Source: Candidatus Tenderia electrophaga
Lineage (GTDB): Bacteria > Pseudomonadota > Gammaproteobacteria > Tenderiales > Tenderiaceae
Length of the DNA: 64,000 nucleotides
Assembly: GCA_001447805.1 (NCBI GenBank)
Contig: CP013099.1
Location: forward strand, 1,054,001-1,118,000
Reading direction: 5' to 3'
Part shown: in pieces, positions 9,852-28,016 of the stretch
Numbering within the stretch: the first letter of the stretch is position 1
Layout: each line of letters starts with the position of its first letter
Translations under genes and position numbers: made by a program
Notes under the pieces: generated by a model
What the model was told of the DNA's origin: nothing
What the model saw: the letters and a program-made list of their open reading frames with translations, nothing else
Database searches by the model: none

Positions 9852-10359
9852 GGGATTGCCACCCATCCGGGTGCTGGGCATCGGCTCGCCCTTCGGTGCC
9901 GACGATGTCGGTTGGCGTTTGATCGACGCACTGACGGCATCGCCAAGCCTGGGTCCTTTTCTCAAGCGCGAGTTGCTACTGGCGTCCTTGGACCGTCCGG
10001 GGGCGGCACTATTGCGCTATCTCGAAAATGCCCGCCATGTGTTGCTGCTCGATGCCGTGGTGGATGACACATTGCCTATCGGCACCGCGCGACGTTACTC
10101 GTTGGATGACATCCAGAACGCGCCGCTGCTATCCTCCAGTCACGCCTTCGGGGTGCAGCAGGCACTCAGTCTGGCCGCGGCCCTGGATCAATTGCCGGAT
10201 AGCCTGGCGTTGTGTGGGGTCAGCATCGGCGCGGACTTTCCCGACACAAACAGTCAAACCAACGATTGGCCGACATGTATTTCCGCGATTGTCCTGTCGC
10301 TGGAAGACGACATCTTGCGTCTGTGCACTGGTCTTAGAGGGCATAATGTGACAAATTAG
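9835..10359 (+). CDS. Hydrogenase maturation endopeptidase
   Basis: The 174-residue protein belongs to the HycI/HyaD/HoxW-type peptidase family that trims the C-terminal tail of the NiFe large subunit after metal insertion. It shows the GIGSPFGADDVGW motif near residue 16, with the metal-sensing acidic residue, LLLDAVVDD near residue 67, and SSHAFGVQQALSLA near residue 100 with the conserved His. The GTG at 9835 lies inside the end of hydA, so expression is probably coupled. TTG 9856 is an alternative start. It is dedicated to HydA by position. Confidence 0.82.
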   Translation: MSNGVEGLPPIRVLGIGSPFGADDVGWRLIDALTASPSLGPFLKRELLLASLDRPGAALLRYLENARHVLLLDAVVDDTLPIGTARRYSLDDIQNAPLLSSSHAFGVQQALSLAAALDQLPDSLALCGVSIGADFPDTNSQTNDWPTCISAIVLSLEDDILRLCTGLRGHNVTN

Positions 10360-22692: not shown

Positions 22693-24132
22693 GTGAAACT
22701 GTTGCGTCCCACCTCCATCATCCAGCTGATCCTGATCGGCTTCGCCGTGGTAGCCCTGCCGCTGATAGTGGCGCTATTGTATGCGGCGGCTTCGGTGGAC
22801 AAGCTGGCGGCCCAGAGTCAACGGGCCATTTCCCATGCCGTCAAGGCCACCGAGGGCGGACGCATGCTGGCGGAGCAGATCACGCTCATGGAGCGTAATC
22901 TACGCCAATACCAGGTGCTGGGGGATGAGGCCCTGCTGCGGGTCTACCAGGCCAACCGGGCGCGCTTTGACGAGACCCTGGGGCCGCTCAGCACGCTGCC
23001 CCTGCCGGAAGACCTGCAGCAGATCCTGGCCCGGCTGCGGGGTGAGGAGTACCAGTTCTATCAGCGTGTGCGTGATCGGCGAGACGCCCTCGGCGACCTG
23101 GATGTGGCCGACACCTTCACCCGGCTGGCCGAGTTGGCGCAACAAATCCTGGTGCAGAGCCAGCGCCTGATCGACGTCCAGGTGGAACGCACCCAGCGTT
23201 CTGCGCAGCAGGCCCAGCGCACCCTGTTTATGCTGTCCTCCCTGCTGGTGCCGGCGGTGCTGGTGTTGCTGGGGTTCGTCGTGGTGCTGATCCGGCGGCC
23301 TTTGCACCGCCTGGATGAGGCCATCCATCGCCTGGGGGCGGGGGATTTTACCGTGCCCCTGCAATTGCAGGGGCCGCGTGACCTGGAACAGCTGGGCGAG
23401 CGGCTCGACTGGATGCGCACCCGCCTGATGGAGGTGGATGAGGACAAGCAGCGCTTTCTGCGCCATATCTCACACGAGCTCAAGACGCCGCTGACCTCCA
23501 TCCGCGAGGGCTCGGAGCTGTTGGCCGAGGAGATCCCCGGTCCGTTGTCACCGCAACAACACGAGATCGCCGAGCTGTTGCGCCAGAACGGCCAGCAGTT
23601 GCAGAAGCTGATCGAGGATTTATTGAACTATAATGCCGCTACCCACGGTCCGGCGCTGAATCTGGCACCGCTGCAGCTGGACGAGCTGGTCAATGCAGTG
23701 ATTGCCGATTGTAAGATGGCGGTGATGACCCGGCGGCTCTGGTTCGAAGTGGACCTGGCCGAGGTGAGTGTGGTCGCCGACGCGGAAAAGCTGCGCGTGG
23801 TCATCGATAATCTGCTTTCCAATGCCATCAAGTATTCGCCCCTGCAGGGCCGAATCCGGGTCTGCCTCAGCCGCCGCCAGGGGCAGGCTTGGCTGGATGT
23901 GGAAGATCAGGGGCCCGGCATCCCGCCCGAGCAGCAGGAGCGGGTATTCGAGGCCTTTTATCAGGGAACCGCGTCGTACACCGGCCATGTGGCCGGCAGC
24001 GGATTGGGACTTTCCATTGTGCGGGAATACCTGCATGCCCACGGTGGCGCCATAGAAGTAGTCAACGACGGCAAGCCGGGCGCCCACCTGCGTGCCCGAT
24101 TGCCGTTGCAACAGGAGACGGCAACGGGATGA
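22693..24132 (+). CDS. glrK: GlrK-like sensor histidine kinase
   Basis: The 479-residue inner-membrane kinase starts at GTG 22693 (VKLLRPTSIIQLILIGFAVV), with the first membrane helix at about residues 8-32. A periplasmic coiled domain follows, then a second helix (TLFMLSSLLVPAVLVLLGFV, about 178-197), a HAMP linker (IHRLGAGDFTVPL), the H-box FLRHISHELKTPLTSIREGS near 255 and HATPase boxes (NLLSNAIKYSP; DVEDQGPGIP; GSGLGLSIV). Sequence style and the downstream qseG-glrR genes identify it as GlrK (QseE-type), partner of the sigma-54 activator GlrR. The GTG has no strong ribosome site, and the cysS hairpin lies just upstream. Confidence 0.88.
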   Translation: MKLLRPTSIIQLILIGFAVVALPLIVALLYAAASVDKLAAQSQRAISHAVKATEGGRMLAEQITLMERNLRQYQVLGDEALLRVYQANRARFDETLGPLSTLPLPEDLQQILARLRGEEYQFYQRVRDRRDALGDLDVADTFTRLAELAQQILVQSQRLIDVQVERTQRSAQQAQRTLFMLSSLLVPAVLVLLGFVVVLIRRPLHRLDEAIHRLGAGDFTVPLQLQGPRDLEQLGERLDWMRTRLMEVDEDKQRFLRHISHELKTPLTSIREGSELLAEEIPGPLSPQQHEIAELLRQNGQQLQKLIEDLLNYNAATHGPALNLAPLQLDELVNAVIADCKMAVMTRRLWFEVDLAEVSVVADAEKLRVVIDNLLSNAIKYSPLQGRIRVCLSRRQGQAWLDVEDQGPGIPPEQQERVFEAFYQGTASYTGHVAGSGLGLSIVREYLHAHGGAIEVVNDGKPGAHLRARLPLQQETATG

Positions 24133-24674
24133 AATCCTGGCATTTGATAACATGGGGTATAGTGCTTTGGTCTTCGCTCCTGCTGGCGGGCTGCAGCGGC
24201 CTGCCGCTGTGGCTGGAAACCCCCGAGGCAAAGCGCAACCCCGCCGCTTCGGTGGCGCCGTTGACCGCGGAACAGGCCGTATTGCAACAATTCGCCTGGG
24301 TGCAGCGCGCTGCGGCGGAGCAGCTGGAGCGGGAATTGCCGGCCCTGGAAGAAGTCTTTGCCCTCCAGCCGGTGGAGCGTCACCGGCTGCGCCTGGCGGT
24401 GACCCTCGGCTTTGCCGATTGCCGCGGCTGCGACCGGCAGCGCGCCGTCGAGTTGTTCCAGCAGAGTCAGCGTGAAGCTGAGGAAGACACCACGCGCACC
24501 CTGGCCGCTATGTTTCTCGACCTGCTCGAGACCCGTACGCAGCTTGAGGCCCGGGGCACGGAGCTGGCGCGGCAACGGCAGGCGGCACAGGCCTTGCAAC
24601 AGCAGCTGGGGGCCTTACAAGAAAAGCTGGACGCCTTGACCTCTATCGAGGAGAGTCTGCACCAGCGCGAATAA
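24129..24674 (+). CDS. qseG: QseG-like outer-membrane lipoprotein
   Basis: This 181-residue protein begins in an ATGA overlap with the glrK stop. Its N-terminus (WGIVLWSSLLLAGCSG) is a lipoprotein signal with the acylated Cys at residue 22. The mature part is helical, with a C-terminal Gln-rich coiled coil (QAAQALQQQLGALQEKLDAL). In enterobacteria the gene between glrK and glrR encodes QseG, a lipoprotein that contacts the kinase from the outer membrane. The assignment here is by position, size and lipobox, and sequence similarity cannot be scored. Confidence 0.7.
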   Translation: MKSWHLITWGIVLWSSLLLAGCSGLPLWLETPEAKRNPAASVAPLTAEQAVLQQFAWVQRAAAEQLERELPALEEVFALQPVERHRLRLAVTLGFADCRGCDRQRAVELFQQSQREAEEDTTRTLAAMFLDLLETRTQLEARGTELARQRQAAQALQQQLGALQEKLDALTSIEESLHQRE

Positions 24675-24698: not shown

Positions 24699-26042
24699 AT
24701 GATGAATGCTGCCAAGGTAATGATAGTGGATGATGATCCGAGCCTGCTGCGCTTGCTGTCCATGCGCCTGGAGGCGGCCGGCTACGAGCCGGTGTGCGCC
24801 TCCAGCGGCGAGCAGGCGCTGGCCAAACTGCCGGTCTCCCGGCCTCAGGTGGTGATTACCGACCTGCGCATGGGAGGCATGAACGGCATGGCCCTGTTCG
24901 GTGAGATTCATGAACGCAACCCCTCCATGCCGGTGATTATGCTTACCGCCCACGGCTCCATTCCCGACGCGGTGGCGGCCACCAGCCGCGGGGTATTCGG
25001 TTTTCTGACCAAACCCTTCGACAGCAAACAATTGCTGGATATGGTCAAGCAGGCCGCCTCCTTCGGTGGCGAACAGTCCAGTGAAGCGCCGCAAGACGAG
25101 TGGTGCCGCGAGATCGTGACGCGCAGCTCCGCTATGGATGAGTTGCTCAGCCAGGCCCATCTGATCGCGCGCAGTGATGTCAGCGTGTTTATTCACGGCG
25201 AGAGCGGTACCGGCAAGGAATTGCTGGCACGCGCTATCCACCGCGCCAGCCCGCGCGCCGACAAGCCGTTTATCGCGGTCAATTGCAGCGCCATTCCGGA
25301 GCAGCTGCTGGAATCCGAACTCTTCGGTCACCGCAAGGGCGCCTTTACCGGCGCCACCCATGATCACAAGGGGTTGTTCCAGGCCGCCCACGGCGGCACC
25401 CTGTTCCTTGACGAGATCGGCGATATGCCGCCGGCCTTTCAGTCCAAGTTATTGCGCGTACTGCAGGAGCACCAGGTGCGGCCGGTGGGATCGGTGGAGT
25501 CCATTCCCATCGATGTGCGCATGATCTCGGCCACCCACCGCGACTTGGAACAGGCTACCCAAGAGGGTGAATTCCGCGAAGACCTGTATTACCGCCTGAA
25601 TGTGGTGGCCCTTGAAATGCCGGCCCTGGCCGAGCGGCGCGAGGATATTCCCCTGTTGGCCAATCACTTTCTGCACAAGCTGCGCGGCAAGGAGGCGAAA
25701 AAGGCCAAGAGTTTCTCGCCCGAGGCCGTTGCATTGCTGGTGCAGGCCGCCTGGCCGGGCAACGTGCGCCAGCTCTACAATGTGGTGGAGCAGGCGGTGG
25801 TGCTGACCACCTCGGCCGTCATCCCGGCCCAGCTGGTGCAGCGTGCGTTGCGCAGCAAGGGCAATGAGATTCTGCCCTTCGCCGAGGCGCGCCAGCGTTT
25901 CGAACGCGACTATCTCACCAAGCTGCTACGCACCACCAACGGTAATGTCACCCAAGCGGCGCGGCTGGCCCAGCGGAATCGCACCGAGTTTTATAAGCTA
26001 CTGAATAAGCATCACTTAGCCCCCGCCTTGTTTAAAGAATGA
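24699..26042 (+). CDS. glrR: GlrR-like sigma-54-dependent response regulator
   Basis: The 447-residue activator has a receiver domain (VMIVDDDPSLLRLLS; phospho-Asp in VVITDLRMGGMNGM near residue 54; Lys in FLTKPFD near 104). An AAA+ sigma-54-interaction domain follows (Walker A HGESGTGKELLARAIH near 167; GAFTGA loop in HRKGAFTGATHDHKG near 215; Walker B GGTLFLDEIGDMP near 235). The C-terminus is a Fis-type HTH (GNVTQAARLAQRNRTEFYKLL). It is paired with GlrK. The 300 bp downstream carry two exact matches to the TGTC-N10-GACA site described for GlrR and a sigma-54 promoter, so it probably controls the next gene. Confidence 0.9.
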   Translation: MMNAAKVMIVDDDPSLLRLLSMRLEAAGYEPVCASSGEQALAKLPVSRPQVVITDLRMGGMNGMALFGEIHERNPSMPVIMLTAHGSIPDAVAATSRGVFGFLTKPFDSKQLLDMVKQAASFGGEQSSEAPQDEWCREIVTRSSAMDELLSQAHLIARSDVSVFIHGESGTGKELLARAIHRASPRADKPFIAVNCSAIPEQLLESELFGHRKGAFTGATHDHKGLFQAAHGGTLFLDEIGDMPPAFQSKLLRVLQEHQVRPVGSVESIPIDVRMISATHRDLEQATQEGEFREDLYYRLNVVALEMPALAERREDIPLLANHFLHKLRGKEAKKAKSFSPEAVALLVQAAWPGNVRQLYNVVEQAVVLTTSAVIPAQLVQRALRSKGNEILPFAEARQRFERDYLTKLLRTTNGNVTQAARLAQRNRTEFYKLLNKHHLAPALFKE

Positions 26043-26046
26043 GGAT

Positions 26047-26064
26047 TGTCGCTGCATGGCGACA
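26047..26064. promoter_or_regulatory. Candidate GlrR-binding site 1 (TGTC-N10-GACA)
   Basis: TGTCGCTGCATGGCGACA is a perfect TGTC-N10-GACA palindrome with extended symmetry (TTGTCGC/GCGACAA). This is the pattern reported for GlrR upstream of the enterobacterial glmY and glmZ promoters. It begins five bases after the glrR stop and lies about 160 bases upstream of the sigma-54 -24 element, a normal enhancer distance. Confidence 0.65.
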
Positions 26065-26113
26065 AGGGGGATGGCCATCAGTTCATATACTTAGCGGTGT
26101 TTCCTCATTTGGC

Positions 26114-26131
26114 TGTCGCCGCAGGGCGACA
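26114..26131. promoter_or_regulatory. Candidate GlrR-binding site 2 (TGTC-N10-GACA)
   Basis: TGTCGCCGCAGGGCGACA repeats the same pattern 67 bases after site 1, about 95 bases upstream of the -24 element. The two sites share all outer and most inner bases. Two hairpin-forming units also fit a transcription-end role for glrR, but the lack of T-runs and the exact spacing favour protein binding. Confidence 0.65.
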
Positions 26132-26206
26132 GATTCGTGCTGCCCCGCACCGGCCGATCACCGGGCGGGATATATAAGATATTGATTAATAAATACAATC
26201 CATTGC

Positions 26207-26222
26207 TGGTATAGTTGTTGCA
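26207..26222 (+). promoter_or_regulatory. Sigma-54 promoter ahead of the exosortase-type acyltransferase
   Basis: TGGTATAGTTGTTGCA has the invariant GG at -24 and GC at -12 with exactly ten bases between them, and a full TTGCA -12 box. The predicted transcript begins near 26233, leaving an untranslated leader of about 110 bases before GTG 26343. The leader contains a small hairpin (CCCTT-TACCG-AAGGG near 26279-26293). The rest of the 26043-26342 gap holds nothing else I can name. Confidence 0.6.
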
Positions 26223-26342
26223 TGGTTCATGGGGGTATGGTGAGGCGGGTGTGCCGCGGGGGTGGTAATGACATCGGTCCCTTTACCGAAGGGGGGCGCC
26301 TTCTAATAAGGTCGCGATACGTCCGGGCGCCTTGAGAGTTTT

Positions 26343-27152
26343 GTGCGGTTCATTTGGCAAAGGATTGATCCATTGACTACTAGCTCCAGTTTATTTCACC
26401 AGAATTTCGAAATCCTAAAGGCAGACACCCCCGACTTAATCGATGCGGCGCATGAACTGAGATATCAAGTTTATTGCCAAGAGAAGGGTTACGAGGACGC
26501 CGAGCGTTACCCCGATCGGCGCGAATATGATGAGTATGACAGCCACGCCGTCCACAGTCTGATCAGGCACCGCCACAGTGGCGTGTATATCGGCGTGGTG
26601 CGGCTGGTGCTGCCCCATAGCGGGGGCGCCGATCGGCCGTTGCCGATCGAGCAGCACTGCGGGCTGGATCTGGAAAAATCCCATCCCCATCTTGCCACGT
26701 TGCCGCGACAGGCGATCGGTGAAATCTCCCGTTTTTCGGTCTCCAAGGTATATCGTCGCCGTATCGCCGAGCAGGGTCTGATCTGGGGTGTGTGCCGGGA
26801 GGGTGAGTCTTACAATGCCAATTTTCATCCCCACTTCAATCGCCGCCATCTGCCCTTGATCACCCTCGGCTTGATCGCCGCCTCGTTTCGCATGTGTGAA
26901 GAACATAAAATTCGTCACTGTTATGCGGCCATGGAACCTACGCTGCTGCGTCTGCTGCAAGGGGTTGGTATCGGCTTTCAACCGCTGGGTATGCCGGTGG
27001 ATTATCATGGTATGCGGGTGCCGGCCTATTATCCGGTGAGTGAAAGGATGCCCTGGGTGTTGAATACCCGTTCCGAGTTGCGAGGCATCTATTACGGCGA
27101 GCAGACCCAATCTCAGGAGCGCTACCGCCACAAGCAGCTGGTGGCTGTCTGA
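26343..27152 (+). CDS. PEP-CTERM/exosortase system-associated acyltransferase
   Basis: The 269-residue protein resembles the exosortase-associated GNAT-like acyltransferase family, relatives of N-acyl amino acid synthases. Visible family segments are LRYQVYCQEKGYED near residue 38, YIGVVRLVLP near 82, EISRFSVSKVYRRR near 127 and CYAAMEPTLLRLLQGVGIGF near 199. The family normally sits in PEP-CTERM/exosortase exopolysaccharide loci, but none of those genes is in this window. It may add a fatty acyl group to an unknown amine. The GTG 26343 start is supported by GAGAG upstream, and TTG 26373 is an alternative. It is preceded by the candidate GlrR/sigma-54 control region. Confidence 0.78.
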   Translation: MRFIWQRIDPLTTSSSLFHQNFEILKADTPDLIDAAHELRYQVYCQEKGYEDAERYPDRREYDEYDSHAVHSLIRHRHSGVYIGVVRLVLPHSGGADRPLPIEQHCGLDLEKSHPHLATLPRQAIGEISRFSVSKVYRRRIAEQGLIWGVCREGESYNANFHPHFNRRHLPLITLGLIAASFRMCEEHKIRHCYAAMEPTLLRLLQGVGIGFQPLGMPVDYHGMRVPAYYPVSERMPWVLNTRSELRGIYYGEQTQSQERYRHKQLVAV

Positions 27153-27236
27153 TGTGATGCCATCCGCTGCATGTGCAGCGGCTAAGGCGCTCGGTTAACA
27201 TTGATCCCATTGGATGTTTTAAAATGGGATGGGCCC

Positions 27237-28016
27237 TTGATCGAGCAAGACCGCAACTTTGATGATCTCGCCGCGCGTTTCGCCTGCAATATCTACGGTA
27301 GCGCCAAGGGCGAGATTCGCCTTGCCATCGTCTGGCAACATCTGCTTCAGACCCTGCCCCAGTTAGGCGCCAAGCAATCCCTGCGTATCCTCGACGGCGG
27401 CTGTGGCTTCGGCCAACTGGCGCGACGCCTGGCCGGCTTGGGGCATGAGCTGGTATTGAGCGACCTGTCGCGCAACATGTTGGCACAGGCCGAGCGCCAG
27501 TTCGCCGCCGAGCTGCCGGATGCCACGGTGCGTTTCGTCCATGCCCCGCTTCAGTCCCTCGATCCCGAACAACTGGGTACTTTCGATCTGGTGCTGTTGC
27601 ACGCGGTCTTGGAGTGGTTGGCTCAGCCGCAACGGACGCTGGGCAGACTGTTAGCCCTGATCAAGCCGGGCGGATACCTGTCCCTGATGTTCTACAACCG
27701 GGACGCACTGGTGTTTCGCAATCTGATCCGCGGTAACTGGCGCAAGGTGGAAAGCGGCGAGTTGCAGGGCGAGGCGGGCGGGCTTACGCCTTATCATCCC
27801 CTGAGCCTGCGGGAGGTCGAGTCCTGGTTACAGCAATGGGGTCTGTCGGTGATCGGTCACGCCGGAGTGCGGGTGATCTACGATTACATGGATACGCGCC
27901 TGCGCGATGCGCGTGCCGTCGACGAAGTGGTGCGCATGGAGCTGCAATATGCGCAGCAGGAGCCTTATTTGCATCTGGGCCGCTATCTGCATCTGGTGGC
28001 GCGCAGGCCGAAATAA
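27237..28016 (+). CDS. cmoM: tRNA 5-carboxymethoxyuridine methyltransferase CmoM
   Basis: CmoM methylates cmo5U34 of certain tRNAs to mcmo5U using SAM. The protein (259 residues from TTG 27237) follows the E. coli pattern closely: QDRNFDDLAARFACNIYGSA near the start, motif I LRILDGGCGFGQLARRL, motif II LVLSDLSRNML, LVLLHAVLEWLAQP, GYLSLMFYNRD, and the ending EPYLHLGRYLHLVARRPK. I chose TTG 27237 because the family begins just before QDRNF. TTG 27201 would add 12 non-conserved residues. The next 230 bases (28017-28249) contain no feature I can support. Confidence 0.88.
   Translation: MIEQDRNFDDLAARFACNIYGSAKGEIRLAIVWQHLLQTLPQLGAKQSLRILDGGCGFGQLARRLAGLGHELVLSDLSRNMLAQAERQFAAELPDATVRFVHAPLQSLDPEQLGTFDLVLLHAVLEWLAQPQRTLGRLLALIKPGGYLSLMFYNRDALVFRNLIRGNWRKVESGELQGEAGGLTPYHPLSLREVESWLQQWGLSVIGHAGVRVIYDYMDTRLRDARAVDEVVRMELQYAQQEPYLHLGRYLHLVARRPK

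Follow-up and report, generated by a model that had tools for sequence, protein, structure and literature searches.

To our knowledge, GlrKR (QseEF) is known almost only in enterobacteria, through glmY and rpoE. As set out in the cited parts of the literature, the target of enterobacterial GlrR (QseF) encoded next to qseEGF is a small RNA, glmY, which is known to be assisted by integration host factor (IHF; PMC6075780). Acyltransferases associated with PEP-CTERM/exosortase systems are described, in those parts of the literature that treat them, as N-acyl amino acid synthases. The locus described here joins these two subjects. It lies in the window (the whole stretch of DNA analyzed, 64,000 nucleotides of contig CP013099.1 of Candidatus Tenderia electrophaga), and its features, in window coordinates, are as follows:

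22705..24132, + strand: GlrK/QseE-type histidine kinase, start approximate (HisKA, HATPase_c and HAMP domains)
24129..24674, + strand: lipoprotein in the QseG position, lipobox LLAGC (phmmer matches to counterparts)
24699..26042, + strand: glrR, NtrC-type sigma-54 activator (best NCBIfam model GlrR)
26047..26064, + strand: GlrR-type site 1, TGTCGCTGCATGGCGACA, exact TGTC-N10-GACA
26114..26131, + strand: GlrR-type site 2, TGTCGCCGCAGGGCGACA, exact TGTC-N10-GACA
26175..26187, - strand: IHF-like site, AATCAATATCTTA (exact WATCARNNNNTTR), an exact consensus match between enhancer and promoter
26207..26222, + strand: sigma-54 promoter (-24/-12), TGGTATAGTTGTTGCA, fitting the consensus and kept in relatives
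26233..26372, + strand: predicted transcript start (placed from the promoter) and untranslated leader
26359..26364, + strand: ribosome binding site AAAGGA, kept across most of the genus
26373..27152, + strand: TIGR03694 acyltransferase, probable N-acyl amino acid synthase by family score and fold, TTG start
27201..28016, + strand: CmoM-like methyltransferase, possible read-through neighbor

We named the regulator GlrR because the best-scoring model, the operon (which also encodes a GlrK-type kinase and, at the position of QseG, a lipoprotein) and the recognition helix agree, the helix (RNRTEFYKLL) being identical to that of enterobacterial GlrR (L166, L169 and L173). Its score against the GlrR model is 642 bits, below the cut-off of 763 for this equivalog model, versus 393 bits against PrsR (TIGR02915, cut-off 502.6), and GlrR is the best family model by 205 bits. 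A kinase likewise precedes glrR in the GlrR loci of other Proteobacteria, with identities of up to 48%. The lipoprotein gave no match in Pfam and NCBIfam searches and matches enterobacterial QseG weakly; its best phmmer match to lipoproteins encoded between glrK and glrR in other lineages reached 2.9e-09.

A preliminary description of this DNA had placed two TGTC-N10-GACA palindromes just past glrR, and a sigma-54 promoter of the pattern GG-N10-GC at enhancer distance from them. Both palindromes are present and exact at the positions claimed; site 1 begins 4 bases past the glrR stop, the spacing from site 1 to site 2 is 67 bp, and each palindrome extends beyond the core to TGTCGC-N6-GCGACA. 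The promoter, 75 bases from site 2, is better than the pattern originally noted, because it agrees with all fixed bases of the -24/-12 consensus. Single exact sites number 59 in the 3.76-Mb genome, as compared with 49 for the reversed pattern used as a control; this count is near background, and a lone site therefore carries no meaning (a third exact site in the window, a single one at 10295-10312, compares with 0.7 expected by chance). A genome-wide search for further pairs and for sites with promoters, which the preliminary description had proposed, returned this locus alone on both counts: it is the one exact pair at 62-68 bp (0.006 expected per genome) and the one match to a site with TGG-N8-TTGC 55-85 bp downstream. 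Looser patterns were less discriminating: the extended palindrome at two mismatches gave a higher count for its control (in a listing without the exact window sites, which was set aside), and a site combined with the loose GG-N10-GC pattern showed no excess over the control in several relatives.

The IHF-like site has a preferred position. At 34 GlrR-type promoters, a minus-strand match to the same sequence with at most one mismatch is found at offsets 33-35 from the promoter in 25 cases, of which 16 share one exact position, with 5 matches at all other minus-strand positions and 4 on the plus strand. This offset was seen in the data before it was counted, and we therefore regard it as a strong pattern and not as a pre-planned test.

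The preliminary description had made its reading depend on conservation in close relatives, and here it held: all six readable relatives (five from the genus and one from another genus of the family) have glrR, the two sites, the promoter and the enzyme in the same order, with the twin sites 67 or 68 bp apart. Both sites are exact in two of these genomes (G005 and G009), and one site of the pair has one mismatch in three (G006, G007 and G008) and two mismatches in G002. Neither GlrR nor the linked enzyme was found in a sixth genus member, G004, whose genome is 77% complete. In G001, a family member that lacks the enzyme, glrR is followed by a GlrR-type site, a second site with one mismatch and a sigma-54 promoter, and these precede an unrelated open frame of 166 amino acids; going by its sequence, the module stayed in this genome and the target differs. 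One of the relatives also has a second TIGR03694-like gene at a contig end (L025, G009:C10), preceded at about 500 bases by twin sites and a promoter of its own.

The gene behind the promoter, previously described as an exosortase-type acyltransferase, is indeed a TIGR03694 member, scoring 238.5 bits against a cut-off of 111.95. Its start is most likely the TTG at 26373, which lies behind AAAGGA and is kept in the genus; this corrects the earlier GTG at 26343. The sequence around it, AAAGGATTGATCCATTGA, is nearly constant in most of the genus. The leader, earlier given as 110 bases, thus comes to about 140 bases. The best fold matches of the enzyme are the acyl-homoserine lactone (AHL) synthases TofI and BjaI, and FeeM (PDB 2g0b) also matches (E about 1e-6, probability 1.00) at 13% sequence identity. 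Glu117, in the motif GEISRF (E-x-S-R), is invariant; in a related enzyme the catalytic glutamate of such synthases was shown by mutation, according to the cited part of that study (PMC4897644), and the motif suggests that Glu117 corresponds to it. Family score and fold point to a probable N-acyl amino acid synthase, which most likely attaches a long acyl group to an amino acid or another amine, yielding a surface-active or membrane aminolipid. The CmoM-like neighbor is found likewise in three genus relatives; a perfect hairpin, CCGCTGCATGTGCAGCGG (27164-27181), without a T-run, lies between the two genes.

We evaluated how often the module and the enzyme family occur together elsewhere. Pairs at 62-68 bp lie upstream of 16 of 74 TIGR03694 genes (14 distinct regions, two of them common to divergent genes); the count was 0 of 74 with every control motif and 0.1 in shuffles. 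A sigma-54 promoter follows the twin sites, in one direction, in all 14 regions. Several of these genes are away from glrR (in genus g26 of family f22, G215, G317 and G367). Every genome with a twin-site TIGR03694 gene has GlrR; among enzyme-carrying genomes, twin sites occur in 8 of 26 that are GlrR-positive and in 0 of 16 that are GlrR-negative (p = 0.013, uncorrected for relatedness). In the other 18 of these 26 GlrR-positive enzyme carriers twin sites were not detected, and the link is therefore recurrent, neither obligatory nor general. Twin-site genes fall in three places on the enzyme tree. A single origin of all of them was rejected by an AU test (p = 0.0003), which did not reject one for the two nearer groups, f1 and f22 (p = 0.385); the statement supported by tree and tests is that there were two or more independent recruitments. 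At L234 (G367) and L246/L070 (G317) two divergent TIGR03694 genes, from different subfamilies, flank the twin sites, and the assignment of the served gene rests on promoter direction because of this position; a good promoter is found in one direction only.

The same sites mark glrR loci well beyond the family. In 260 kb surrounding 30 glrR orthologues of other Proteobacteria and of Nitrospirota we counted 35 exact sites; 419 kb surrounding 50 other members of the NtrC family, taken from the same search, contained 4 (1.35 versus 0.10 per 10 kb, about 14-fold), and twin pairs numbered 10 versus none. An unbiased search across 369 genomes of the class gave exact twin pairs in 26 and the control pattern in 1; several of the 26 contain unrelated perfect repeats (G269, G282 and G240), and most of the remaining pairs stand before envelope genes, among them the TIGR03694 enzymes of G352 and G367.

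Other putative targets were seen at individual loci. In three of them (L152, Dechloromonas; L157, a metagenome-assembled genome labeled Gammaproteobacteria; and L168), GlrR-type sites and a sigma-54 promoter on the minus strand upstream of glrK precede a bactofilin gene and then a GNAT gene. The GNAT gene in Dechloromonas belongs to the FeeM family (178 bits), which would place a second synthase family under GlrR-type control. Twin sites with a sigma-54 promoter stand ahead of OpgG (periplasmic glucan synthesis) at L164:5335-5420 and L282:1501-1585, an arrangement that adjoins glrR in Rubrivivax and occurs too in G117. Downstream of glrR in Burkholderiales (Janthinobacterium and Duganella among L171, L172 and L147), the module precedes small secreted BON-domain proteins, and the similar BON arrangement at L147 (Methylophilaceae) has one exact site. 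In several gammaproteobacteria (L291, L298, L293, L304 and L148) it precedes small secreted proteins with EF-hand-like sequence, a group for which the Pfam comparison covered the L291 product. Our search of the open-access literature found no paper joining GlrR/QseF with N-acyl amino acid synthases, OpgG regulation, bactofilin or BON proteins, and a GlrR module ahead of N-acyl amino acid synthases is a link absent from the literature searched.

Taken together, these comparisons establish, as a pattern in DNA, the module, its conservation and its repeated occurrence before members of one enzyme family. We consider it highly likely, with respect to the full mechanism, that 26043-26372 is a GlrR-dependent sigma-54 enhancer-promoter driving a probable N-acyl amino acid or aminolipid synthase. 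The broader reading, which we hold with moderate confidence, is that GlrKR acts as an envelope regulator across the Proteobacteria and that its enhancer module (palindromes paired at 62-68 bp, a fixed IHF-like site and a sigma-54 promoter) was kept while its target was swapped between lineages, synthases having been recruited at least twice within TIGR03694 and once as a FeeM-type enzyme in betaproteobacteria.

Several other explanations were weighed against this one. The locus might represent ordinary PEP-CTERM regulation by PrsR, with the GlrR label a misnaming, since TIGR03694 is named after exosortase systems and PrsR sites, too, precede a sigma-54 promoter by about 63 bases (PMC1569441). 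The scores given above speak against a PrsR identity for the window regulator, and the genome has a separate PrsR that scores 726 bits, over the cut-off, near the exosortase (C1:3019555-3020886), so that the locus is not a case of ordinary PEP-CTERM regulation. The sites differ as well (PrsR motif 1 ends in TTTACA and the window sites in GACA), and TGTC-N10-GACA was not found in 38 kb around the exosortase locus. The exosortase and the true PrsR are about 1.9 Mb from the window, as are a PEP-CTERM tail (IPEPSVLGLMGAGLLAGGLVARRNKK) and two more TIGR03694 copies, which lie about 11 kb from the exosortase; the window enzyme is thus a third copy under different control, the exosortase-side copies being distant and free of GlrR sites. 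(The PEP-CTERM tail protein near PrsR is encoded on the minus strand of L338, at about 14780.) We consider regulation by PrsR highly improbable. The earlier suggestion that GlrKR controls a PEP-CTERM or surface-lipid function accordingly divides: the surface lipid, or N-acyl amino acid, is favored, and direct control of PEP-CTERM protein sorting by GlrKR is not indicated.

A product other than a protein was also suggested, namely that the leader is a GlmY/GlmZ-like small RNA made from this promoter and that the acyltransferase is incidental. The precedent of glmY beside qseEGF and the size of the leader favor this idea, which did not stand up: Rfam models of GlmY and GlmZ found no match in the leader even at E 10, its fold is no better than that of shuffles (z = +1.08), and, in a further argument against a GlmY-like RNA, its sequence and length vary within a genus in which the enzyme is kept along with its TTG start. 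Other families, moreover, carry the module ahead of unlinked copies of the same enzyme family, and a small RNA appears very unlikely. That the palindromes are RNA hairpins ending the glrR transcript, and not protein-binding sites, is a reading to which we give hardly any credence. Each could form a 6-bp stem, and site 1 is close to the glrR stop; against this, no T-run follows the palindromes, the twin spacing and the distances to the IHF-like site and promoter are kept, and pairs of this kind are also found away from glrR, as well as on the opposite strand upstream of glrK. A rather doubtful alternative, but one deserving more weight than these, accepts the promoter control and holds that the enzyme makes an OlsB-like membrane aminolipid precursor or a signal and no free N-acyl amino acid. 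It draws on a weak similarity to OlsB, on AHL synthases as the best fold matches and on a related meningococcal enzyme that gave N-acyl ornithines and lysines (PMC9762135); membership in TIGR03694, the literature name for exosortase-associated enzymes and the failure to notice a second acyltransferase of the OlsA kind beside the enzyme weigh on the other side.

For GlrR-dependent control of the synthase, we infer the following course of events. GlrK, probably with its partner lipoprotein, would sense an envelope signal and phosphorylate GlrR; GlrR dimers on the two palindromes would assemble the AAA+ activator; IHF would bend the DNA at its candidate site, bringing the activator into contact with RNA polymerase carrying sigma-54; and transcription from near 26233 would yield the acyltransferase (GNAT/AHL-synthase fold), which would then form its acylated amine product. 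If the broader reading of GlrKR is true, the physiological setting for these lipids would be envelope stress. The conserved GlrR-sigma-54 switch would tie GlrKR to acyl amino acid synthesis in several lineages and raises the question of whether envelope stress, through GlrK, turns this synthesis on; the module also provides a sequence signature sharp enough for GlrR targets to be predicted throughout the Proteobacteria.

Compared with known systems, the locus is closest to E. coli GlrR (QseF) with glmY and rpoE. In both, as far as the cited parts of PMC6075780 and PMC8745638 describe the E. coli case, upstream activating sites of the form TGTC-N10-GACA (TGT-N12-ACA), a sigma-54 promoter and IHF assistance (predicted here) recur, and a glrK-qseG-glrR operon adjoins the target. 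The E. coli target is a small RNA before glrK, with three sites, whereas the locus here has two sites, 67 bp apart, and a protein-coding lipid enzyme after glrR. The PrsR/PrsK regulation of PEP-CTERM genes (Haft 2006, PMC1569441) is alike in having an NtrC-family regulator and an enhancer about 60 bases ahead of a sigma-54 promoter, and differs in regulator protein and DNA motif. The window enzyme resembles the exosortase-associated TIGR03694 acyltransferases in family score, AHL-synthase/FeeM fold and E-x-S-R motif but differs from them in lying outside an exosortase locus, under GlrR-type control and without a PrsR-type motif. FeeM itself shares the fold at low identity, and a true FeeM-family gene sits under the GlrR module in Dechloromonas.
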